Source: Moraxella nasibovis (lineage in GTDB: Bacteria; Pseudomonadota; Gammaproteobacteria; Pseudomonadales; Moraxellaceae). Taken from it: DNA of 64,000 nt. Made by a program: the position numbers and the translations under genes. Positions 8,472 through 61,905 of the stretch are shown here, piece by piece. The notes beneath the pieces were generated by a model. That model was not told the DNA's origin. It saw only the letters and a program-made list of their open reading frames with translations, and did no database searches. How positions within the stretch are numbered: position 1 is the first letter of the stretch; every line of letters starts with the position of its first letter. The stretch lies in the NCBI RefSeq assembly GCF_029581575.1, contig NZ_CP089975.1:124001-188000 (forward strand). Reading direction: 5' to 3'.

Positions 8472-8562
8472 TATTGTGCATGACATCCTTCAACACCCAA
8501 TCCGTTAACACACCCAACCCAAAAAGCACGGCAGGTGGGGATGAGCAAATGTGAAACCCCAC

Positions 8563-8622
8563 ATTTATATCATAACTCATTGAATTTGTTGGGTTTCGTT
8601 TCACTCAACCCAACCTACGGAC
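8563..8622. repeat. Partial copy of the 163-bp dispersed element
   Basis: Carries the central block ATAACTCATTGAATTTGTTGGGTTTCG and its partner CTCAACCCAACCTACGG, nearly identical to the copy at 43013-43158. The outer TIR-like ends are missing or degraded. Confidence 0.55.
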
Positions 8623-8644
8623 TTGCCGATCATAACAGGCGTAA

Positions 8645-8680
8645 TAAAAAAGGACGAACGCATCGCTCGTCCTTTTTTTG
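8645..8680 (-). terminator. Rho-independent terminator of glmS
   Basis: A strong stem (AAAAAAGGACGA with its complement, loop about ACGCATCGC) lies just beyond the glmS stop; on the minus strand it ends in a T run. The A/T tails are symmetric, so it could also stop plus-strand transcription from the hypothetical gene. Confidence 0.8.
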
Positions 8681-8691
8681 GTTGGGGGAAA

Positions 8692-10536
8692 TTATTCCAC
8701 CGTGACAGATTTTGCCAAGTTTCTAGGCTTATCCACATCCGTGCCACGCACCAAGGCGACATGGTAGGACAAAATTTGCACGGCGATGGTATGCACGATG
8801 GGAGACAACACCCCGACATGGCGCGGCGTACGAATCACATGCACACCTTCGGTCTCGGCATAGTCGCTGTCAAGGTCGGTCAGCACGAACAGCTCGCCGC
8901 CACGCGCGCCGACTTCTTGCATGTTGGCTTTGACCTTATCAAGCAGCTTGTCGTTAGGTGCAATGACGACTACGGGCATATTTTCATCGACCAGCGCCAA
9001 AGGACCGTGTTTAAGCTCGCCCGCAGGATAAGCTTCGGCGTGAATGTAGGTCAGCTCTTTTAATTTTAAGGCACCTTCTAGGGCGATCGGGTAGTGGATG
9101 CCACGACCCAAGAACAGCGCTGACGGCTTGGTGGCAAATTTCTGCGCCCATGTGGCGATTTGCGGCTCTAAGTTTAGGGCGTGCTGGATGCTACCCGGCA
9201 GCTGACGCAAATCTTCGCCATAATTTTCAAGCGCCGCTTCATCAACAAAACCACGAGATGCACCCAAAGTGACCGCCAAGCCAAACAAAATCACAAGCTG
9301 CGTGGTGAAAGCCTTGGTGCTTGCCACGCCAATCTCTGCCCCAGCACGGGTGTAGATGGCAAGCGTGCTGTTTCTGGGTAGGGCAGACTCCATCACATTA
9401 CAGATGGACAGGCTGTACTTGTGTCCTTGCTCTTGGGAAAATTTTAATGCCTCCATCGTGTCCAGCGTTTCGCCTGATTGGCTGATGGTGATGATCAGCT
9501 CGTTTTCGTCGGCGATGACATCACGGTAGCGGTATTCGCTGGCAATTTCCACATCACAGCGGATTTTAGCGATGGATTCTAGCCAATATTTGCCTGTCAA
9601 AGCGGCATAATAAGAAGTGCCGCAAGCTAGGATTTTGATGCTGTTGATTTTTTTGAAAATCTCAGGGGCGTCTTCGCCAAAGTTTTCTGGCACAAAGCCA
9701 CCGTCCAAGAAAATCTCTGCCGTATCAGCGACCGCACGAGGCTGCTCGTTGATTTCTTTTTGCATGAAATGGCTGTACGGACCAAGTTCAAGGCTGGCAA
9801 GCGACAGCTGAGAGGTCTTGACTTGACGCTGTGGGGTGTTGCCGTCTTTGTCGATCAAGGTGTCGATGCCCTCTGCGGTCAACACAGCGATGTCGCCATC
9901 TTCTAGATAGGTAACTTGACGGGTGAATGACACCACCGCCGACACATCAGAGGCGATGAATACTTCGTCTTCGCCAAAGCCGATGAGTAGCGGGCAGCCC
10001 ATGCGAGCCACCACCATCTGCGTAGGGTCCTCAGGGGTGATGACGGCGATGGCATAAGCACCATGAAAGCGAGAGCAGGCGGTCTGCACAGCACGGTATA
10101 GATGGTTACCGTTTTGGCTGTATTCATGGTGGATGCTGTGGGCGATGACCTCGGTGTCGGTTTGTGATTCAAATTCAAAACCCAAGCCCTGCAAGCGAGT
10201 GCGCTCTGCTTCAAAGTTTTCGATGATGCCGTTATGCACCACGGCAATCGTACCGCCTGAAATGTGCGGATGAGCGTTCGGCTCGGTGACGCCGCCATGT
10301 GTCGCCCAGCGAGTGTGACCGATGCCGATGTGTCCCGTCAGACCTTTGGCTTTGGCGGCCTCTTCCATGTTGGCGACACGACCAACACGGCGCACTCGCT
10401 TGATTTTGTTTTCTTCTTCGCTATATACAGCGATGCCAGATGAGTCATAGCCACGATATTCTAAGCGTTTTAGACCGTCTGTCAAAAAATCTACAATATT
10501 GGCATGCTTACGAATGCCACCGACGATACCGCACAT
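8692..10536 (-). CDS. glmS: Glutamine-fructose-6-phosphate aminotransferase (isomerising)
   Basis: 614 residues, the standard GlmS length. The mature N-terminus begins with Cys2 (MCGIVGG), the nucleophile of the class II glutaminase domain; the C-terminal half has two SIS domains with CGTSYYA, the SQSGET sugar-phosphate motif and [10 protein letters not shown]. The C-terminus [13 protein letters not shown] is the classic GlmS tail. It makes glucosamine-6-phosphate from fructose-6-phosphate and glutamine, feeding peptidoglycan and lipopolysaccharide synthesis. AAGGAA precedes the ATG. It has its own terminator, and a dispersed element ends about 36 bp upstream of the start. Confidence 0.97.
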
Positions 10537-12370: not shown

Positions 12371-13267
12371 ATGACCGACATGACCAATTTTCAGCACCCA
12401 GAACAATATCGCCAGCGTTTTTTTATTGAAAATTCGCCTGTGCGTGGCGATGTGGTACGCCTGACGGATGCTTATCAGACCGTCATCGCCAAAAAAGAGT
12501 ATCCGACCGCCATCAAAGCCCTGCTTGGCGAAATGTTGGTGGCGGCAAGTCTGCTCATCGGCACTTTAAAAATCAATGGCAGATTGTCGGTGCAATTACA
12601 ATCATCGGACGAAGATTCCCCTTTGTCGTGGGCGATGGCAGAGTGTGACCATACAGGGCAAGTGCGTGCGTTGGCAGGCTTTAAACATACCGATGACTGG
12701 CAAACTGCGACCACCAGCCGTCAGGCGTTCGCCAAACTTGGTCAGGGCGTGCTGTTCATCAGTATCCACCCAGAGCGAGGCGAGGCGTATCAGGGCATCG
12801 TGGAGCGTGTGAGCGATGATTTGGCGGAGTGTTTGGCGCATTATCAAAAGCAATCTGCACAGATTCCAACGCTACTCAAACTTGCCACCAGCGATGAAGT
12901 GGCTGGCGGTATTTTGGTGCAATTATTACCACAGACGGACGAGGATCGTGAAAACGACCCAGACCTGTGGGAGCGTATGAGTGCTTTGACTGGCACGATC
13001 AAGGCAGATGAGCTGACCGAACTTCATGCCGACGAGATTTTATACCGACTGTATCACGAAGAAGAAGTGGCGATCCCAGAGGCGAGCGAGCTTGCGTTTG
13101 GTTGTACTTGCTCGGCAGAAAAAAGCGAAGGGGCGATTTTACAATTAGGACACGAAGAGGCACTCAACGCTCTAGATGCACACGGTGGCGTGCTTGCTCT
13201 TGATTGTGGGTTTTGCGGAGAGTCTTATCAATTTGATGAACGCAAGATCAATGAGTTGTTTGTGTGA
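12371..13267 (+). CDS. hslO: Redox-regulated holdase chaperone Hsp33
   Basis: 298 residues from the ATG at 12371; the frame is open upstream to 12317 but those residues are not family-like. The zinc-binding redox switch is at the C-terminus: FGCTCS (CxC) and DCGFCG (CxxC) separated by about 30 residues. Under oxidative stress the cysteines form disulfides, zinc is released and the protein binds unfolding clients in the cytoplasm. An AAGAAG-like site is upstream. It is single, followed by a dispersed hairpin and a bidirectional terminator. Confidence 0.95.
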   Translation: MTDMTNFQHPEQYRQRFFIENSPVRGDVVRLTDAYQTVIAKKEYPTAIKALLGEMLVAASLLIGTLKINGRLSVQLQSSDEDSPLSWAMAECDHTGQVRALAGFKHTDDWQTATTSRQAFAKLGQGVLFISIHPERGEAYQGIVERVSDDLAECLAHYQKQSAQIPTLLKLATSDEVAGGILVQLLPQTDEDRENDPDLWERMSALTGTIKADELTELHADEILYRLYHEEEVAIPEASELAFGCTCSAEKSEGAILQLGHEEALNALDAHGGVLALDCGFCGESYQFDERKINELFV

Positions 13268-13277
13268 TCTTAAAATG

Positions 13278-13300
13278 GGGGCGAAAGATTTTTTGCCCCT
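13278..13300. repeat. Short dispersed hairpin repeat, copy 2
   Basis: GGGGCGAAAGATTTTTTGCCCCT starting 11 bp after the hslO stop. Same unit as at 3758, 36508, 37924 and 48528. Confidence 0.7.
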
Positions 13301-13333
13301 ACGCTTTGGATTGTAAGTTAAATTGGTAAAAAT

Positions 13334-13361
13334 AAAAAGAGCGTTTTGAGTGCTCTTTTTT
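13334..13361. terminator. Bidirectional terminator between hslO and the ABC permease
   Basis: AAAAAGAGC / GCTCTTTTTT stem with a GTTTTGAGT loop, symmetric A and T tails, placed 11 bp before the permease end. It can end both converging transcripts. Confidence 0.8.
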
Positions 13362-13371
13362 ATGCTTGGAT

Positions 13372-14079
13372 TTAGGTGGTTGGCGGTACATAGCGTTTGT
13401 GCTTATTGATGTGGTTTTCAAAAAGTCTAAAACCAATCATAATAATCCACGCCAAAATCAGATAAATCACGCCAGCTGCGACATACATCTCAATGTGCAG
13501 GTAGTTTTTGGCGCCCAGATTCTTGGCGGTATAGGTCAGCTCTGCTAGAGTCATGGACGCTGCCAAAGCACTGCCTTTTAGGATAAAGATGACTTCGTTG
13601 CTATAAGCAGGAATCATGATGCCAAAGGCTCTGGGGAGCATGATACGGCGGATTTTTTGGGATTTTGACATACCGATGGCGTCTGCCGCTTCCAGCTCAC
13701 CCTTTGGAATGGCGGCGATTGCCCCACGCACGATCTCGGCGATGTAGGCGGCGGTATTTAGGGTAAAGGCGATGATGGCACACCAGTAGGCTTGCTTGAA
13801 AACTGGCTCCCATAGAACGCTTTGTTTGATGAATTCAAACTGCCCTAAACCCTGATAAATCAAGAAAATCTGAATCAGTAGTGGCGTACCACGAAAGAAA
13901 AAAATGTACGCAAAGGGCAGCGCCTTAATCCACCAGTGACGAGACGAACGCAAAAGCCCTAAAATCACGCCCAAAATCAGCCCCAACACGCACGATGCCA
14001 CCACCAGCTCAATGGTGATGACGGACGCTTTTAGCATGGTGGGGAGCTGATCAATGACCGCTTGCCAATTAAGATTCAT
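13372..14079 (-). CDS. Polar amino acid ABC transporter permease (HisM/ArtM type)
   Basis: 235 residues from the ATG at 14079, whose first base region overlaps the preceding permease stop (ATGA junction), so the two are translationally coupled. A frame-open extension to 14142 lies inside the upstream gene. Several hydrophobic helices and the cytoplasmic EAA loop (GELEAADAIGMSKSQ) that docks on the ATPase are seen, together with FFRGTPLLIQIFL near the start, typical of the His/Glu/Gln/Arg permease family. It forms a heterodimer with the 14076-14798 product in the inner membrane. The last gene of the transporter operon. Confidence 0.92.
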   Translation of the reverse strand: MNLNWQAVIDQLPTMLKASVITIELVVASCVLGLILGVILGLLRSSRHWWIKALPFAYIFFFRGTPLLIQIFLIYQGLGQFEFIKQSVLWEPVFKQAYWCAIIAFTLNTAAYIAEIVRGAIAAIPKGELEAADAIGMSKSQKIRRIMLPRAFGIMIPAYSNEVIFILKGSALAASMTLAELTYTAKNLGAKNYLHIEMYVAAGVIYLILAWIIMIGFRLFENHINKHKRYVPPTT

Positions 14080-54368: not shown

Positions 54369-57353
54369 TTATCGTTCACTTAATATTTTTTCAATATGGA
54401 ATTTGATTTTGTCTTCCACATATTTTTTTAAAGTCATTTTATTGCCAGATTTGCCGTTTTCTTTTTCATATAAACTGGCGACTTTTTCCATATCGGCGGT
54501 TTTTGCCAAATCTTTTAATAAATTAAACTCGTGCCAATCTTCTTTGCCAAAAACGTGATGATGTAATAATTTTTCAAATAAAGATTTATCCAAATCAAAC
54601 AAATTCACCAATTCAAAAATCGTGCTTTTTTCACGGCTTTCACGGTATTTGTCGAGCAATAAATTTAAAGAAATGTCATCGGGTAATTTACCTTCTATCG
54701 CGTCCGCCAAAATTTGTTTTAATAATTCTTGGTCGGTTTTGCGGTATTGCGTGGACAATTCATTAAAGCGTGCAATATCGGCATTGTTTTGCGATTGATT
54801 GATGTTTTTTAATAATTGACTGATATAGTCGTTGTCAATTTTAATGCGTTCGCCACTAATCAGCGTGTTATCAATCAATAAAATGCCAGAATCATCGCCA
54901 CCTGTTTCACCCGAATGTTCATTTTGCACATCAAGATAACGGGCTTGCAATCGCCCATAATCTTCAATGTCAAACGGCAATTTTGCCATATCTTCGCCAT
55001 TTGCCATATCAAATCCTTGTTGGCGGATTTTAATCATATTTTTTTCCAATTCATTTGCCCAGCGTACAAATTGTTTTTGTGTCGGCAAATCATCAGGCAA
55101 AGCCGAAAAATCAGGTTGCCCATTATCATTTTTGGGAAAAAGCGTGGCAATGTCTTGATAAATATCACGAATAACCGCCAAAGTTTCTTCTAATTTTGGG
55201 GCATTCATCAAACTGCCACCCGCTTTTTTATTGGCGTATAATTCAAAAGCCTTGTCAATTTGCAGTTTCATTTGCAAAGGACGGCGATAATATTCAATAA
55301 TACCATAAGGTTTTCGGCTGTCGGTAATGCGATTGGTGCGTGAAAAGGCTTGAATTAAATTGGCATAATCCAATAATTTATCCACATAAAGCGTATTTAA
55401 ATAGGGGGCGTCAAACCCTGTCAAAAGCTGCTGCACCACAATCACCAAATCAAGGCGAGTGTGGTCATCAACTTCTTGGTATTGATAACGGCGAGCCAAT
55501 CTGTCCATTAAATCGGTTTTATACGCTGGCACATTATCAATACCAAAATCAGTATTAAATCTTTGATTGTAATGAATAATGGCTTGTTCTAATTTTAGAC
55601 TGTTTTCCAAATCATTTTCTTGATTTCGGTCGCTGTCATCATAAATGACCGCCACGCTGATATTTTTATCATTGTTTTTTAATTTCTCAAAATACAAATT
55701 GGCGGTTTTAATGTCTTTCACCGTGAGCATTGCCGAAAATAAACGATTGGACGAATTATTGTCCCATTTTCTTAAAATGTCTTTAATCACCATATCAATA
55801 TGATTTTCGCCATAATTGTCTTCGGGCAATTCTTTTTCTATGGCTAAATCATCTTTTTCAGACAGCCATTTTTGATAAACATCGCCTTTTGACGGGTCTT
55901 TATGTTCAGCAATTTTTTGGCGTAATTCATAAGCGTCATAAGTAAAATTTTGGCGAACATCAAAGGCAAGTACATTATTATCGGCAATACCGTCCGCCAC
56001 CGAATAAATATGCAAAGGATTACCAAAAAGTTCGGCAGTGGTAACCGATTTTTGATTGTCGTCCAATAAGGGCGTACCCGTAAAACCAAACCAAATAGAG
56101 CGACCGAACATTTGCCGAATTTGAATGAGCATTTCGCCTGCGGTAGAGCGATGAGCTTCATCAACAATAAATACAATGTTTTTATCTTTGATTTTATCTT
56201 GGTCTAAGCCTGCGACTTTATTGGCTTTTTGAATGCTGGTAACAATAAGTTTGTCTTTGGTTTTATGATTGATGGCTTTTAATAAAGCATAAGAATTACG
56301 AGTGGTGGTAATGCTGTCTTCTTCGCCAAAAGATTGATATTCGTCAATGGTTTGTTTAACCAGTTCATTTCTGTCCGCCAAAAACACGACTTTATCCACA
56401 TTGGGCAAAGTGCTGACCAATTCGGCTGTTTTAAACGAAGTCATTGTTTTGCCTGAACCTGTGGTATGCCAAACATAACCACCCAATTTAGATTCGTGAT
56501 TTATGCCAAACTCCGCTCCATTTAATCGTTCTAATATTGCTTCCACCGCATAAATTTGATATGACCGCAATACCTTTAAGGCGTTTCGTTCATTATCAAA
56601 AATGGTATAAAGCGACACCAATTTATGCCCCATTGGTACGGATAAAACTTTTTCAATAAATTGACTGGTGCCAAATACATTTTGATTGTCAAAATCTTTC
56701 CAATTAAAGGCAAATTTAAAATTAAATTTATCATAATGCCCAAAATTGGCAAAATAACGGCATTCATCAGGATTTAATATCACAAAAATTTGAATCAGCG
56801 AATAAAATCCTGAAAAACTTAATTCTTCGCTGTATCGTTTGATTTGATAAAAGGCTTCATCGGTTTTAATGCCGTCTTTTTTAAGTTCCAAATGAATCAC
56901 AGGAATGCCAGAAATCAATAAGGTAATGTCAAAACGGCGGTCTTTTCGGTGTTCTTTGCTGGCAGGGCGGGTAATTTGGCGGACGATTTCATAGCTGTTG
57001 CGACCTCCACCGACATCGTGTCGCCAAAAAAACTCCAAAAATAACGGTGTATTTTCCAAACCTTTGGCGTCTCGTACGATTTGTAATTGCCCGTTGGCAA
57101 GCATTTTGCCTGCTTCTATTGGGCTTTTGACGGCAAAAATTTGTGCGGTCAATTGTCTAAATTCGTTGTCGGTCAATTCCACGCCTTGCAAGCGGTCTTT
57201 GTTTTGAGCGTTTAAAATGGCTCGCCAGTTGGCTAATAATTCGCTTTCGGTTTTGTAATACAAATCGGGACGGGGTGTCCAGCCGTATTTGGATAGGCGG
57301 TCAATGATTTCTAATTCAAGTTCGGTTTCGGTTTGGGTGGTTTTTTGGGTCAT
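54369..57353 (-). CDS. hsdR: Type I restriction enzyme, R (motor-nuclease) subunit
   Basis: 994 residues from the ATG at 57353, with GGAG seven bases upstream; the frame is open to 57374. The N-terminal endonuclease domain shows the PD-(D/E)xK pattern (FDITLLISGIPVIHLELKK, with the catalytic Asp and Glu-x-Lys), and the SF2 helicase motor follows with Walker A HTTGSGKT near residue 300, DEAH box FIVDEAHRS and FTGTPLL. The C-terminal part binds the methylase core. It translocates DNA and cuts unmethylated DNA at a distance. It seems complete and in frame. It is separated from hsdS by a partial hsdS cassette and a terminator. Confidence 0.95.
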   Translation of the reverse strand: MTQKTTQTETELELEIIDRLSKYGWTPRPDLYYKTESELLANWRAILNAQNKDRLQGVELTDNEFRQLTAQIFAVKSPIEAGKMLANGQLQIVRDAKGLENTPLFLEFFWRHDVGGGRNSYEIVRQITRPASKEHRKDRRFDITLLISGIPVIHLELKKDGIKTDEAFYQIKRYSEELSFSGFYSLIQIFVILNPDECRYFANFGHYDKFNFKFAFNWKDFDNQNVFGTSQFIEKVLSVPMGHKLVSLYTIFDNERNALKVLRSYQIYAVEAILERLNGAEFGINHESKLGGYVWHTTGSGKTMTSFKTAELVSTLPNVDKVVFLADRNELVKQTIDEYQSFGEEDSITTTRNSYALLKAINHKTKDKLIVTSIQKANKVAGLDQDKIKDKNIVFIVDEAHRSTAGEMLIQIRQMFGRSIWFGFTGTPLLDDNQKSVTTAELFGNPLHIYSVADGIADNNVLAFDVRQNFTYDAYELRQKIAEHKDPSKGDVYQKWLSEKDDLAIEKELPEDNYGENHIDMVIKDILRKWDNNSSNRLFSAMLTVKDIKTANLYFEKLKNNDKNISVAVIYDDSDRNQENDLENSLKLEQAIIHYNQRFNTDFGIDNVPAYKTDLMDRLARRYQYQEVDDHTRLDLVIVVQQLLTGFDAPYLNTLYVDKLLDYANLIQAFSRTNRITDSRKPYGIIEYYRRPLQMKLQIDKAFELYANKKAGGSLMNAPKLEETLAVIRDIYQDIATLFPKNDNGQPDFSALPDDLPTQKQFVRWANELEKNMIKIRQQGFDMANGEDMAKLPFDIEDYGRLQARYLDVQNEHSGETGGDDSGILLIDNTLISGERIKIDNDYISQLLKNINQSQNNADIARFNELSTQYRKTDQELLKQILADAIEGKLPDDISLNLLLDKYRESREKSTIFELVNLFDLDKSLFEKLLHHHVFGKEDWHEFNLLKDLAKTADMEKVASLYEKENGKSGNKMTLKKYVEDKIKFHIEKILSER

Positions 57354-57472
57354 TTTTTTGCTCCGTTTGGGCAATAACGCGTAAAATCATAACATATTTT
57401 GGTAAAATTTACATATTTTTACACAAAAAGTTGGTCAAGCAAAACTTGCTTTAATTGCTGGTATTTTTCTAA

Positions 57473-57540
57473 CTCACGCTGATGAAAAGCGATGGTGTCG
57501 TCTAGTTGTTTAAAAAACTCGCCAATGGCTTGTTGTTCGG
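57473..57540. repeat. 68-bp direct repeat, copy A (end of silent cassette)
   Basis: Encodes AIGEFFKQLDDTIAFHQRE of the conserved helix. Begins CTCACGCTGATGAAAAGCGA and ends GGCTTGTTGTTCGG on the plus strand. Identical to copy C over its length; copy B has one base change visible (TAGTTG to TAGCTG). Confidence 0.9.
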
Positions 57541-57935
57541 CTAGGGTTGGGATGAAAACTTCAATGTTTTTTATCAAGGGGTATTTTAAATTCCAAGTAT
57601 CCGATGTTAAACCTTGTGAATTTACTCTAAACAAATCAAGCATTTTCTCTAACTTAAATTGATAGGAAAAGAACAATGGCGAAACACCTTCGTTTGGTAT
57701 CAAAACCGTGTACGCAGGGCTTAAAATGCCTGAATAAGCGGATACGCCACTTGCACCTTGCCACATTCTCATAGAGTTATAAGCAATGTCGTTAATTTCA
57801 ACTTTTTTGTAATTGCTTTTGTCTTTGCTTGAATTGTCCTTTCTGTCCAAATCGCTAGATTTAATGACACCAGAGTTAATTGTTACTGAAATCAGTTCGC
57901 CTTTATCAGGCCTTTCCGCTCTTTCAGAAAAACAA

Positions 57936-57963
57936 TCCCCCAACTTTCGCTGTTTCCAAGCGT
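57936..57963. repeat. Domain-entry repeat, copy 1 (silent cassette)
   Basis: TCCCCCAACTTTCGCTGTTT then CCAAGCGT. The first 24 bases recur at 59304-59327 and the last 20 (CTTTCGCTGTTTCCAAGCGT) at 58682-58701. Encodes the WKQRKL entry to the recognition domain. Confidence 0.85.
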
Positions 57964-58043
57964 AAATATGGAAATTTGCAATTTATACTAAAAATAAAAA
58001 TATCTTTATAATCAATCATTTAATTTTAATGTAGAAATACAAC

Positions 58044-58079
58044 AACTCATTGACAAAAAGTAATTCTTGCCAATGAGTT
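58044..58079 (-). terminator. Terminator-like hairpin between hsdS and the silent cassette
   Basis: AACTCATTG and CAATGAGTT form a nine-bp stem with further internal pairing, about 48 bp after the hsdS stop. Followed on the minus strand by TGTTGT rather than a clean T run, so termination is likely but partial. Confidence 0.55.
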
Positions 58080-58126
58080 AATTATTGTTAATTTGCGTAA
58101 TAAAATATACCATTTCTTAACAATTT

Positions 58127-59377
58127 TTATACAAACATCTGTTTTAGATAGCCATTTTTAAGGTTTTTATACTTTTCTAACTCACGCTGATGAAAAGCGA
58201 TGGTGTCGTCTAGCTGTTTAAAAAACTCGCCAATGGCTTGTTGTTCGGGCAGGGTTGGGAAATAAATAGGCATTTCAATAAAGACATTGTCCTTAATGGA
58301 TAAACGGTCAGCCCTTGCCCCTGTATCGCCATTTTCTTTCATAAAACTGTGCCATTTTGTGCTAGAAAAGTAAGTTTCCAAGAAAGCAAAATCAATCTCA
58401 TCACAAACTCTAAATACATAGTACAAAGGCGACATAGCCCCAGAACGCCCAAGTTTATTGCGTTTTATCGGTCCGACAGGGGCAAAATTTGAAATTCTAG
58501 GGTTGTAAACAAAATCGTTATTTCTAACTATGTAGTAACCTGATAAATTATTTACATTGGCAATATCTTTATCAAAAAAATCTCTTTGGCTGATAATTCC
58601 TAATTCGGCAGAATTGGTAAAAGTTTCCAAAAATTCCATATTGAGATTTTTCTCTAAAACTTTTTGAGATATATCTTTTAGCTTTCGCTGTTTCCAAGCG
58701 TCAGTAAAATTAGGAAAGCGTAATTGCGGTTTATTCTCATTTTCTTGGGGAAACATCTTTTCCAAGTACGAAATTTTTAAATTTTTGTACTTTTCCCACT
58801 CACGCTGATGAAAAGCGATGGTGTCGTCTAGTTGTTTAAAAAACTCGCCAATGGCTTGTTGTTCGGTTTCACTTGGTAAATTAAATTCAAAATTTAATAA
58901 GTTTTTTGCGGTAATTCCAAAAACTTTTGTACCTGTGGCGATAACTTTTCCGTATTTTGAAAAAATATCCGTATGCAAAAGATAATATAAAAACAGCGAA
59001 TTAACTTCTGTTGGTCTTAAAGCAATTGTATGCAAACCCGCTACAATATTTCTTGATAAAAAACAATCAATTAGACAAGCATTTCCGATACCTTCATAGT
59101 CTTCTGACGCATCGGCAATAACTAAATCTCCCTTTTGTAAAAATTCATAATTACCTTTTTGAATGCTAGGTAAATTATTTTCAGATGATATTAATTTTGC
59201 AATATTCCTATGAATATCGCCATAATGGACGTATTTAAATCCTGTATCTTTATTTGTCTCAACATTTCTTGATAATGAATAAGACTTAATTTGAAAAACA
59301 ACTTCCCCCAACTTTCGCTGTTTCCAATCATCCGTAAATCCAGCAAATCGCAATTTAGGCACTTTACGCTCGCTCAT
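58127..59377 (-). CDS. hsdS: Type I restriction enzyme, S (specificity) subunit
   Basis: 416 residues from the ATG at 59377, which shares one base with the hsdM stop (TGATG); the frame is open upstream to 59413. Architecture: WKQRKL entry, recognition domain 1 (about 25-170), conserved helix 1 (171-225), second entry RFPNFTDAWKQRKL (about 216-232), recognition domain 2 (233-376) and conserved helix 2 (377-416). Both conserved helices contain AIGEFFKQLDDTIAFHQRE. Each recognition domain reads one half of a split DNA target; helix length sets the spacing. The target cannot be predicted from the sequence alone. Confidence 0.95.
   Translation of the reverse strand: MSERKVPKLRFAGFTDDWKQRKLGEVVFQIKSYSLSRNVETNKDTGFKYVHYGDIHRNIAKLISSENNLPSIQKGNYEFLQKGDLVIADASEDYEGIGNACLIDCFLSRNIVAGLHTIALRPTEVNSLFLYYLLHTDIFSKYGKVIATGTKVFGITAKNLLNFEFNLPSETEQQAIGEFFKQLDDTIAFHQREWEKYKNLKISYLEKMFPQENENKPQLRFPNFTDAWKQRKLKDISQKVLEKNLNMEFLETFTNSAELGIISQRDFFDKDIANVNNLSGYYIVRNNDFVYNPRISNFAPVGPIKRNKLGRSGAMSPLYYVFRVCDEIDFAFLETYFSSTKWHSFMKENGDTGARADRLSIKDNVFIEMPIYFPTLPEQQAIGEFFKQLDDTIAFHQRELEKYKNLKNGYLKQMFV
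58181..58248. repeat. 68-bp direct repeat, copy B (end of hsdS)
   Basis: Same unit and orientation as copies A and C, encoding the second conserved helix of HsdS. Confidence 0.9.
58682..58701. repeat. Domain-entry repeat, copy 2 (entry of second recognition domain)
   Basis: CTTTCGCTGTTTCCAAGCGT, identical to 57944-57963. With copy B it brackets recognition domain 2, just as copy 1 and copy A bracket the silent domain. Confidence 0.85.
58799..58866. repeat. 68-bp direct repeat, copy C (middle of hsdS)
   Basis: Encodes the first conserved helix after recognition domain 1, same orientation as A and B. Confidence 0.9.
59304..59327. repeat. Domain-entry repeat, copy 3 (start of hsdS)
   Basis: TCCCCCAACTTTCGCTGTTT then CCAA, identical to 57936-57959. 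It opens recognition domain 1. Confidence 0.85.
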
Positions 59378-61905
59378 CACACACCCCCAACCAGCTGATT
59401 TGCCATTGCCCAAAACGCATTTTCCGCCTGCTGCCTTTGACGGCGAATGTCTTCTAGCGTGTCGGCATAGCGTTCGTCCAGCACTTTAAGCTGATTGGCG
59501 ACCGTTTTGGCGTAGCTTTGCCCCACATCGCTTAAATTGCCCGACAAATCGCCAAACCATTTTTGAATCAGTAAGCGTTTAATCGCTCCCAAATCAAGCT
59601 GTTGATATTGCTGTTCAATTTTGCTGTTTAAGGCGGGTTCTTTGGTTTTAAGTTCGGCTTTTAGGGTTTTAGCAGCCAAAAAATCCGCCAAACTTTCGGA
59701 CAACGGCTCAAAATTTTCATCGTCCATACTCATTGTTTTTAAATCTTTTTCTATGGCTTTATAAGATTTTTCGTCCAATTTTTCCTTGTCATTGACATAC
59801 TCCGCCAATGCGGTATCGGCAATATTGGCAAGGCGTTCGGCTTGGCGTTCTTCAATTTCATCAAGGCTTTGTTTTAGGCGGTCAATCTCGCCAATTTCAT
59901 CGGCAAAAAATTCATAACCAATCATTTGTTTGGACAAAAGTTCGCCTTTGACACCGTCTTGCACTTCGTTTTTGCCTTTCATCACCATATTGGGAACAAG
60001 TCGTCTGGCTTTATAAAAGCCATTTTCACGGACACATTCGTTATCGTCCGCCCCAATTTCGTCCGATAAAATCAACAAATCAGGCAAAATCGTGCTTTGC
60101 CAGACATCAATCAGCGACTGATAAGCGTGATAAGGGTCGCTAAATTCAGACAGTCTAAAAAGTTCAAACAGGCGGTTTTCGGCATTTTCAAAAGTGGTGG
60201 TAAATTCGTCTTCGCCAAGCGGTTTGTCCGCTGTCAAAGCGTGGGCAAAATCGTGTTGCCAAGCGGTAATTTTATTTTGCAAGTCATTGATGTAATTTGC
60301 ATAATCACTGTCTTGGTTGATGATGTCAAAAATCTGGTCTGTTTTGACGCTTAATTTGACAAAATTTGGGCGAATTTCTTGCCATAATTTGGGCGAAATG
60401 TTGGGGAATTTTTGCCAAAATGGGGCAAAGCGAGCCATATCTTCAAGCGGAATACCGCCTTTTAAATGGGCTTCAATGGACTGGCTGTCATCGTTGCCAA
60501 CAGGCGTAACATAGCGTGGAATATTGAGATTAAAGCCGTTGGCGATGATTTCATCAAGCTCGGCAACTTTGGCAAAACCGTCCACATTTTGCCGTGCGAT
60601 GTAGGTGTCTAGGATTTTTTTGATGTCTTGTTCACGCAAAACATTGGTGTTTTTCTCTTTGCGATAGCCGTTTGACGCATCAATAAACAGCACATTGTTG
60701 TGTTTGCTTTGTTTACGCAAAATCACAATAATGGTCGGAATGCCCGTGTTGGTAAAAATCCCCGCAGGCAGTCCGATGACCGCATCAATTTGCCCACGCT
60801 GTAACAATTTGGTGCGGATTTTTTCTTCTTCATTGCCCCGAAATAACACGCCGTGTGGCAAAACAATCGCCATTACCCCGTCAGGTTTTAAGTGGTACAA
60901 GGAATGGAGCAAAAAGGCATAATCGGCTTTGGTGGCAGGGGCAACGCCATAATCACGGTAGCGTGGGTCTTTGAGCTGATTTTCGGACGCTTCCCATTTG
61001 GCAGAATAAGGCGGATTGGCAACGACTGCGTCCACAAATAAGGGGTCGTCTTTGCCACTGATAATGCCATTTGGCCAGTCTTCTTTGAGCGTGTCGGCAT
61101 TACGCAAAACCATATTGGCAGGGCTTACGCCACGCATCAAAAGGTTCATTCGGGCAATGTTGTAGGTGGTGGAGTTGTTTTCTTGACCGTAATATTTGAT
61201 TTGGTTGCGTTGTTTGGGCGAGATTGCCGAACCCAAAGTCAAAAGCAAAGAGCCTGAACCTGCGGTCGGGTCGTAAACAGTGGGTTTGTCTTTGCCACGA
61301 ATTTCATTGGCGACAATGCTTGCCATAATTTGCGAAACTTGGTGTGGGGTGTAGAACTCGCCTGCTTTTTTGCCCGAACTCATCGCAAATTGGGCAATCA
61401 GGTATTCATAAATAAAGCCAAAAGTATCGTAATCGGTGTTGCTAGAAATGTTAATATCATCAAGCAAAACCAAGAGTTTACGCACGGCGGATTCTTTTTC
61501 GCTGGCGTTTGAGCCAAGTTTTTCGGAAGTTAAATTGACATCGTCAAAAATCCCTTCAAAATCTTCTTTTTGGTGTGGGTCTAGGTTTTGACGAAAATGG
61601 GAAAGGGCGTCTGTTACATTGCTGATTCGCCAATTCCCACCCTTGATATTGGCAATCCAAGTGCTGTACAAATCGTCTTTGGCGATGTAGTAGCCTAAGT
61701 CGGATTTTAGGGTGTCAATGTTTTCATCGTCCAAGTCGTCAAGGGTCATTTCGTATTCTTTGGCAAGGTAGCCAACTTCGTATTCTGACAAAAATTTGTA
61801 AAACAAAAAGCCCAAAATGTAGTTTTTGTATTCGCTGGCGTCCATTTTGCCACGCAAGTCGTTGGCTGATGCCCAAAGTTTGGTGGCGAGTTGTTGTTTG
61901 TTCAT
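59377..61905 (-). CDS. hsdM: Type I restriction enzyme, M (methyltransferase) subunit, long form
   Basis: 842 residues, against about 500-530 for E. coli-type HsdM. The N-terminal HsdM domain (about 8-150) is followed by the adenine-methylase core: AdoMet motif DPTAGSGSL (Asp212) and the catalytic NPPYS (Asn297). Beyond about residue 480 is a C-terminal extension of some 350 residues, with coiled-coil-like DRLKQSLDEIEERQAERLAN near 685-705 and a final RRQRQQAENAFWAM helix. Two M plus one S form the methylase; it should make N6-methyladenine. AAGGAA precedes the ATG; first gene of the operon. Confidence 0.95.
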   Translation of the reverse strand: MNKQQLATKLWASANDLRGKMDASEYKNYILGFLFYKFLSEYEVGYLAKEYEMTLDDLDDENIDTLKSDLGYYIAKDDLYSTWIANIKGGNWRISNVTDALSHFRQNLDPHQKEDFEGIFDDVNLTSEKLGSNASEKESAVRKLLVLLDDINISSNTDYDTFGFIYEYLIAQFAMSSGKKAGEFYTPHQVSQIMASIVANEIRGKDKPTVYDPTAGSGSLLLTLGSAISPKQRNQIKYYGQENNSTTYNIARMNLLMRGVSPANMVLRNADTLKEDWPNGIISGKDDPLFVDAVVANPPYSAKWEASENQLKDPRYRDYGVAPATKADYAFLLHSLYHLKPDGVMAIVLPHGVLFRGNEEEKIRTKLLQRGQIDAVIGLPAGIFTNTGIPTIIVILRKQSKHNNVLFIDASNGYRKEKNTNVLREQDIKKILDTYIARQNVDGFAKVAELDEIIANGFNLNIPRYVTPVGNDDSQSIEAHLKGGIPLEDMARFAPFWQKFPNISPKLWQEIRPNFVKLSVKTDQIFDIINQDSDYANYINDLQNKITAWQHDFAHALTADKPLGEDEFTTTFENAENRLFELFRLSEFSDPYHAYQSLIDVWQSTILPDLLILSDEIGADDNECVRENGFYKARRLVPNMVMKGKNEVQDGVKGELLSKQMIGYEFFADEIGEIDRLKQSLDEIEERQAERLANIADTALAEYVNDKEKLDEKSYKAIEKDLKTMSMDDENFEPLSESLADFLAAKTLKAELKTKEPALNSKIEQQYQQLDLGAIKRLLIQKWFGDLSGNLSDVGQSYAKTVANQLKVLDERYADTLEDIRRQRQQAENAFWAMANQLVGGV

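Follow-up and report, generated by a model that had tools for sequence, protein, structure and literature searches.

A type I restriction-modification locus of Moraxella nasibovis with recognition modules between direct repeats and a linked tyrosine recombinase: a probable tvr-like shuffling system

Genes and repeats of the locus

A stretch of 64,000 nucleotides of the Moraxella nasibovis chromosome (64 kb, in the following called the window) was analyzed. It harbors a type I restriction-modification system with hsdR, hsdM, and an hsdS gene encoding two recognition domains (TRDs), and, in addition, a half-cassette with a third TRD and a tyrosine recombinase gene that is convergent with hsdR (Table 1). 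The hsdS start codon and the hsdM stop codon have one base in common. The chromosome is complete, with 2,227,058 bases, and the cassette region is single-copy in it; this one genome of the species contains a single arrangement of the locus.

Table 1. Positions of genes, repeats, and other features within the window
Feature	Position	Strand	Remarks
hsdM	59377-61905	-	TIGR00497 above cut-off; PF02384, E 2.7e-104
Expressed hsdS	58127-59377	-	ATG at 59377; frame open from TTG 59413 (58127-59413); two PF01420 (Methylase_S) stretches
W1, opening site of TRD1	59312-59327	-	core at 59320
E1, closing repeat of TRD1	58799-58866	-	core at 58807
W2, opening site of TRD2	58682-58697	-	core at 58690
E2, closing repeat of TRD2	58181-58248	-	core at 58189
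Hairpin, possible terminator	58043-58080	-	between hsdS stop and silent cassette
Silent half-cassette	57419-57964	-	opening site, TRD3, closing repeat, tail; one PF01420, E 4e-9
W3, opening site of TRD3	57944-57959	-	core at 57952
E3, closing repeat of TRD3	57473-57540	-	core at 57481
hsdR	54369-57374	-	TIGR00348 above cut-off; PF04313; frame begins with TTG 57374, likely start ATG 57353
Tyrosine recombinase, 310 aa	53361-54293	+	PF00589, E 1.3e-22; PF13102

The half-cassette has no start codon of its own ahead of TRD3. Its frame is open from 57964 to the stop codon, and upstream of it stop codons are found in all three frames, so that its description as silent in the initial annotation is reasonable. 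The interval between hsdS and the cassette (57965-58126) contains no gene and has stop codons in all three frames read. A terminator had also been proposed there. The A+T-rich hairpin with 17 pairs, a loop of 4, and a fold z of -4.28 is indeed present, but its T tract is weak, and a consensus scan of 57300-59500 yielded 2 terminator-like sites compared with 1.8 in shuffles. Its function as a terminator is plausible.

The bodies of the three TRDs are nearly unrelated. TRD2 and TRD3 are 25% identical over 130 aa (E 7e-4), TRD1 and TRD3 are 35% identical over 34 aa, and the match of TRD1 and TRD2 covers 15 aa only. The repeats at their edges are therefore not remnants of a recent duplication of a whole domain. 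Further Methylase_S matches in the genome are located at 2187852 and at 717902, and the latter contains stops. A further TRD donor with an opening site elsewhere in the chromosome was considered and rejected, because no such site exists beyond the three of the locus.

All three TRDs start with an exact copy of the opening site TTGGAAACAGCGAAAG (W), which encodes WKQRK and is on the minus strand in each case. W2 and W3 have in common these 16 bp and a preceding ACGC (20 bp), whereas the bases upstream of W1 are different. The pattern TTGGRAACAGCGNRAG has three copies in the whole genome, all of them at this locus, and the reversed-pattern control had 0. When up to 3 mismatches were allowed, the mean number of matches in shuffles was 1.07, and 3 were reached in 9 of 100, so that the count at this laxity is weak evidence; the three perfect copies together with their genome-wide restriction to the locus are not due to chance. 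Each TRD ends with a 68 bp direct repeat (E), which encodes FHQRE. Its first and third copies have the same sequence, from which the second deviates by one base; a longer repeat family of 138 nt was also detected for the closing repeats. These PF01420 matches, exact opening sites, and closing repeats confirm the initial annotation of three recognition domains, two in hsdS and the third in the silent cassette, edged by repeats of the same orientation.

Two features had escaped the initial annotation, namely the recombinase gene and a core, CAGCGNRAG, that is common to the W and E sites. Six copies of this core occur in the window; they are confined to the locus and all are on the minus strand. 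All six are spaced from the hsdS frame by a number of bases divisible by three, and the coordinates give distances of 738 bp for W2-W3, 708 bp for E2-E3, 501 for W2-E2, and 471 for W3-E3. Because the phases are equal at both ends and TRD2 and TRD3 are open, a W-to-E exchange preserves the reading frame. Neither an inverted cassette, an inverted copy of the core, nor a long inverted repeat between the cassettes was found. Switching by inverted repeats was rejected for the window, as the three modules and six cores are all on the minus strand, and the locus, having neither inverted hsdS copies nor inverted repeats, is not an inverting locus of the ivr/cod type.

The recombinase and the locus within the genus Moraxella

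The recombinase frame is intact, and the protein is 94% identical to its counterpart in M. lacunata. The residues R146, H251, R254, H277, and Y287 are invariant (alignment A1 of 3); based on the motif of the tyrosine recombinase family, we take them to be the catalytic residues. The NCBIfam matches were XerA/C/D-like and integron-integrase-like, all below the cut-off, and searches against solved structures retrieved generic integrases and S subunits only. Among 22 genomes of the genus, the recombinase was found in three at E <= 1e-30. The pattern TTGGRAACAGYGNRAG has nine copies in the 22 genomes, three in each of the three recombinase-bearing genomes and 0 in the other 19, and its reversed control had 0. 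As a further control within the genus, 29 distinct sites from 30 loci were compared. The opening site was present in 0 of the 20 that came from other hsdS genes; the remaining nine belonged to the three recombinase-linked loci.

M. lacunata has the same locus with the same TRD1, and its gene order (L016) is exactly that of the window. TRD2 and TRD3 differ between the two species, and they are bounded by the same repeats. Scored in 100-base intervals, the mean nucleotide identities were 45% for TRD2 and 54% for TRD3, with 69-75 in intervals straddling a TRD border. The means for the other parts were 89% for hsdR and for the recombinase gene, 89-91% for hsdM, 91% for the spacer between the cassettes, 95.5% for the linker, and 97.5% for TRD1. 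Single intervals scored 85 in part of the spacer and 81-99 in hsdM, and the hsdM interval 60201-60300 scored 42. The region 58701-59500, which comprises TRD1 and the hsdM-hsdS junction, is 95-98% identical per 100 bases.

The divergence of TRD2 and TRD3, with 89-97.5% identity in the other parts, supports the exchangeable cassettes with matching borders that the initial annotation had proposed. Neither TRD2 nor TRD3 of the window was found in a swapped position in M. lacunata, and a simple position swap between the two species was rejected, because both TRDs differ. That they are entirely different speaks for import as much as for switching. The higher identity of TRD1 in comparison to hsdM and hsdR (89-91%) suggests a transfer of TRD1 between the two species. 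At three close positions of the E repeat, all three window copies have T, A, and A, and all three M. lacunata copies have C, G, and G; in total, 19 of 86 positions compared vary in some way. Judged from this pattern, the E repeats are subject to concerted evolution within each species.

Several further features of the M. lacunata locus were observed. The hsdM gene of strain NCTC10359 (L011, 7615-10111) is split over two frames, and the poorly matching stretch corresponds to 60201-60300 of the window. The type I system of this strain may thus be inactive, or the assembly may be wrong. An additional ORF of 181 aa (L011, 4773-5318) is located between the silent cassette and hsdR; its product resembles a REP-associated (Y1-type) transposase.

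The type I locus of the third recombinase-bearing genome (G010, locus L012) has an hsdM that differs from that of the window, and its units all have one direction. W sites are present at its two second TRDs and at the silent cassette and absent at its two first TRDs, which is consistent with an immobile first TRD position. The two hsdS genes of this locus have a common 3' half of 733 bp (8507-9239 and 13057-13789; 99.6% identity) and different first TRDs, and the common half suggests recent copying.

The locus might also be a frozen relic that no longer rearranges, with the half-cassette left behind from an earlier replacement of hsdS. A single known arrangement, a cassette without a start codon ahead of its TRD, a recombinase gene that is not inside the array, and the split hsdM of M. 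lacunata, which indicates that such loci may decay, would all fit such an origin. In a relic, however, it would be hard to account for a silent frame that is open throughout in both species in spite of different TRDs, for E repeats that evolve in concert, for the intact and conserved recombinase, and for W sites that are all still perfect. Taken together, we regard a relic as highly unlikely.

Relatives of the recombinase in other phyla

A scan with the three recombinases of the genus was used to collect related loci. The best 80 of 393 relatives, the window, and L012 made up a set of 82 loci, which is a sample of near relatives; as the loci are related, the counts are not independent. Units of hsdS were present in 69 of the 82 loci, which belong to several phyla. 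In the DNA pieces of the 13 others (3.0-12.7 kb), neither an hsdS unit nor an exact TTGGGAACAGCGT was found. These numbers bear on the notion that the recombinase is part of an unrelated mobile element, inserted beside hsdR by chance. Defence loci often adjoin integrases, and the family matches of the recombinase are generic and below the cut-off, but the presence of hsdS units at most homologous loci and the coincidence of recombinase and W sites in the same three genomes of the genus render a chance insertion extremely improbable.

The orientation of the extra units could be scored for 35 loci: 16 were direct-only, 17 mixed, 1 inverted-only, and 1 had no extra cassette. The tally omits the other 47 loci, in which hsdM or a full hsdS was missing from the flank examined; the searches for hsdM and hsdR used profiles built on the window's proteins and may have missed distant kinds. 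Direct-repeat arrays are thus common among near relatives of the recombinase, contrary to the initial annotation, which had held a direct-repeat layout to be less common. In Macrococcus hajekii (L032) the gene order is exactly that of the window.

Among the 211 TRD units of the 82 loci, 183 allowed placement of the opening site; the other 28, in which the domain match begins too late, were excluded. Of the 183 placed sites, 172 agree with TTGGGAACAGCGTAAG in at least 14 of its 16 bases. The codon usage at the site differed strongly from that elsewhere in the same domains: Gln was encoded by CAG in 170 of 173 cases (48% elsewhere), Lys by AAG in 151 of 157 (39% elsewhere), and Arg by CGT in 137 of 170 (35% elsewhere). 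The same bias was found in single, mostly silent units, with CAG in 79 of 81 and AAG in 71 of 72 cases. These codon frequencies indicate that, among the relatives of the recombinase, the DNA sequence of the opening site is conserved more strongly than the encoded amino acids require. At the closing sites, an in-frame HQR was present in 147 of the 211 units, with His encoded by CAT in 146 of these 147, and 64 units had no closing HQR motif.

Duplicated TRDs revealed the borders of the exchanged segments. Eight near-identical TRD pairs were detected within loci, and in six of them an exact block of 433-517 bp began at the W site and ended at the E core, as predicted from cassettes with matching borders. 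Of the two remaining pairs, that of L051 has diverged and that of L012 has other borders, namely an exact 3' half duplication of 721 bp that has E1 and the end of the gene as its edges, which looks more like homologous exchange. Between loci, TRD pairs with at least 50% identity comprised 97 single/second, 80 single/first, and 69 first/second pairs, the units being defined by a common open reading frame and not by expression. In genera other than Moraxella, related TRDs occupy different positions in different loci.

These results are also relevant for a rival explanation, homologous, RecA-type domain movement (DOMO), according to which the repeats provide homology for gene conversion or for imported DNA, and the recombinase is incidental or inactive. 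In M. catarrhalis, direct repeats of 11-59 bp beside the TRDs and TRDs common to several loci have been described (PMC6241649), and the main text of that article does not contain the words "recombinase" or "integrase". In H. pylori, TRD movement at repeats of 37 and 49 bp has been described (PMC3077401). A repeat length of 68 bp would permit some homologous exchange, and the duplicated half-gene of L012 and the possible import of TRD1 would also fit. However, the 16 bp W site is short for RecA, and yet its synonymous positions are conserved across phyla; within the genus it occurs only in genomes with the recombinase; and six duplications stop in the short core and not anywhere in the longer repeat. 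Therefore, we consider homologous movement as the sole mechanism to be rather unlikely.

Plasmids provided additional cases. On two plasmids of Enterococcus raffinosus (L141, L142), with a recombinase of 64% identity, the first TRDs are exchanged between the expressed hsdS and an inverted hsdS. Judged from the two sequences, this rearrangement took place in nature, but by inversion. Genes annotated as subunit S lie on both sides of a relative of the recombinase (56%) on two plasmids of Lactobacillus delbrueckii. In this look-up, 14 of 70 records with a recombinase match were examined, and no annotated hsdS was found near the relative (about 55% identity) in 10 plasmid records of Ligilactobacillus salivarius. 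On these plasmids (L129-L138), it adjoins genes for GbpC/Spa or other adhesins. A stretch of 2.1 kb that includes both adhesin parts has opposite orientations in L. salivarius S35 and S40 (L130/L131, 6793-8907), with 100% identity. The recombinase family thus probably also shuffles adhesin domains, and homology alone cannot assign hsdS as the substrate.

Proposed exchange and its relation to known systems

By its anatomy, the locus is a member of the recombinase-linked, TRD-shuffling class of type I systems: it has an extra TRD module beside hsdS, a linked tyrosine recombinase, and a common short border site. We assign a probability of about three in four to site-specific, recombinase-driven TRD shuffling that works like the tvr locus (SpnIV) of S. 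pneumoniae. The anatomy, the site conservation, the exchange borders seen by comparison, and the linkage of the recombinase were observed directly. We infer that the recombinase acts on the W and E sites, that the reaction can be reversed in this strain, and that it alters methylation.

The exchanged module would be one TRD, from the opening site W to the closing repeat E, and the recombinase encoded beyond hsdR would most likely recombine the CAGCGNRAG cores. Recombination of W2 with W3 would excise a circle of 738 bp containing TRD2, the hsdS stop codon, and the hairpin, and leave an in-frame hsdS with TRD1 and TRD3. Re-entry of the circle via its E core into E3 would exchange TRD2 and TRD3 with nothing lost; excision at E2 and E3 followed by reintegration at W would have the same outcome. 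The swap would leave the tails, the hairpin, and the spacer in place and would give rise to two HsdS proteins with two specificities of methylation and restriction, while TRD1 would be constant. RecA-type exchange at the 68 bp repeats may contribute, and joint action is conceivable, with the recombinase using the W sites and either route the longer E repeats. As the recombinase gene is outside the array, a circle would not contain it and could be lost.

The initial annotation had proposed a swap by double crossover or gene conversion. Exchangeable cassettes are supported by our results, but the mechanism was incomplete, because the adjacent recombinase and its probable sites had been overlooked. 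It had expected simple crossing over to delete a domain, whereas a loss-free route of excision and reintegration exists, as described for tvr (PMC6265443). In summary, the cell can probably swap recognition modules. If the system is active, Moraxella would be a further case of bacteria in which a recombinase switches type I specificity, and restriction, possibly also gene expression, would vary within a clone. The short site, conserved as DNA across phyla, offers a handle for locating such loci; a survey based on inverted repeats such as that described in PMC7394358 would miss direct-only arrays. A further idea, which we put forward as tentative and rather doubtful, is that W-TRD-E units act as mobile cassettes in a system that extends over several phyla. 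As the recombinases of the family have one site within the coding sequence in common (TTGGGAACAGCGTAAG, core CAGCGNRAG), TRD modules would be excised and captured between loci, strains, and even genera in an integron-like manner, and direct-only arrays with the recombinase in trans would be one stable form of the system.

Three kinds of known systems are similar to the locus. For Moraxella, none of the titles and abstract openings examined in the open-licence literature mentioned hsdS shuffling linked to a recombinase; the movement of type I TRDs in M. catarrhalis is already in print (PMC6241649), as is the Listeria form of the site (PMC4783014). The x-TRD-y modules of DOMO, which has been described in H. 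pylori and is also assumed to occur in M. catarrhalis, likewise have two direct repeats and TRDs that change position, with exchange between alleles or loci (PMC3077401, PMC6241649). In contrast to the window, no dedicated recombinase is described there, and the repeats have 37/49 bp and 11-59 bp. The ivr/cod loci (SpnIII, PsrA) and the hsd locus of Listeria ST8 have in common with the window a tyrosine recombinase, hsdS, and short sites before the TRDs (PMC7096588), and the first bases of the W site of the recombinase family are found within the Listeria inversion repeat, agcttgggaacagcgt (PMC4783014). These systems use inverted repeats and inversion, whereas all repeats of the window are direct.

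The closest counterpart is tvr. As described in PMC6265443, this locus has direct repeats of about 18 and about 70 bp with a common core of about 11 bp. Circles were detected by PCR, and deletion of the recombinase gene tvrR greatly lowered shuffling. Excision at the short repeats required the recombinase, while excision at the long repeats weakly persisted without it and also in a recA mutant, and loss-free excision at one repeat type with reintegration at the other was demonstrated experimentally. Like tvr, the window contains a type I locus with TRD-coding modules, a tyrosine recombinase, and two kinds of direct repeats with a common core in one orientation; in tvr, too, the TRD adjacent to hsdM stayed in place, and a 2+1 arrangement exists. 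The two loci differ in that the TRD groups of tvr enclose tvrR and the toxin-antitoxin genes tvrAT, which are carried along in the circle, whereas the window has only three TRDs and its recombinase gene is beyond hsdR on the other strand; neither a recombinase nor a toxin-antitoxin gene is present between its cassettes, where 57965-58126 is too short. The locus is therefore not tvr in the strict sense but would work like it. The principle is known from pneumococcus, and the layout with the recombinase outside the swapped segment is a variant of it.
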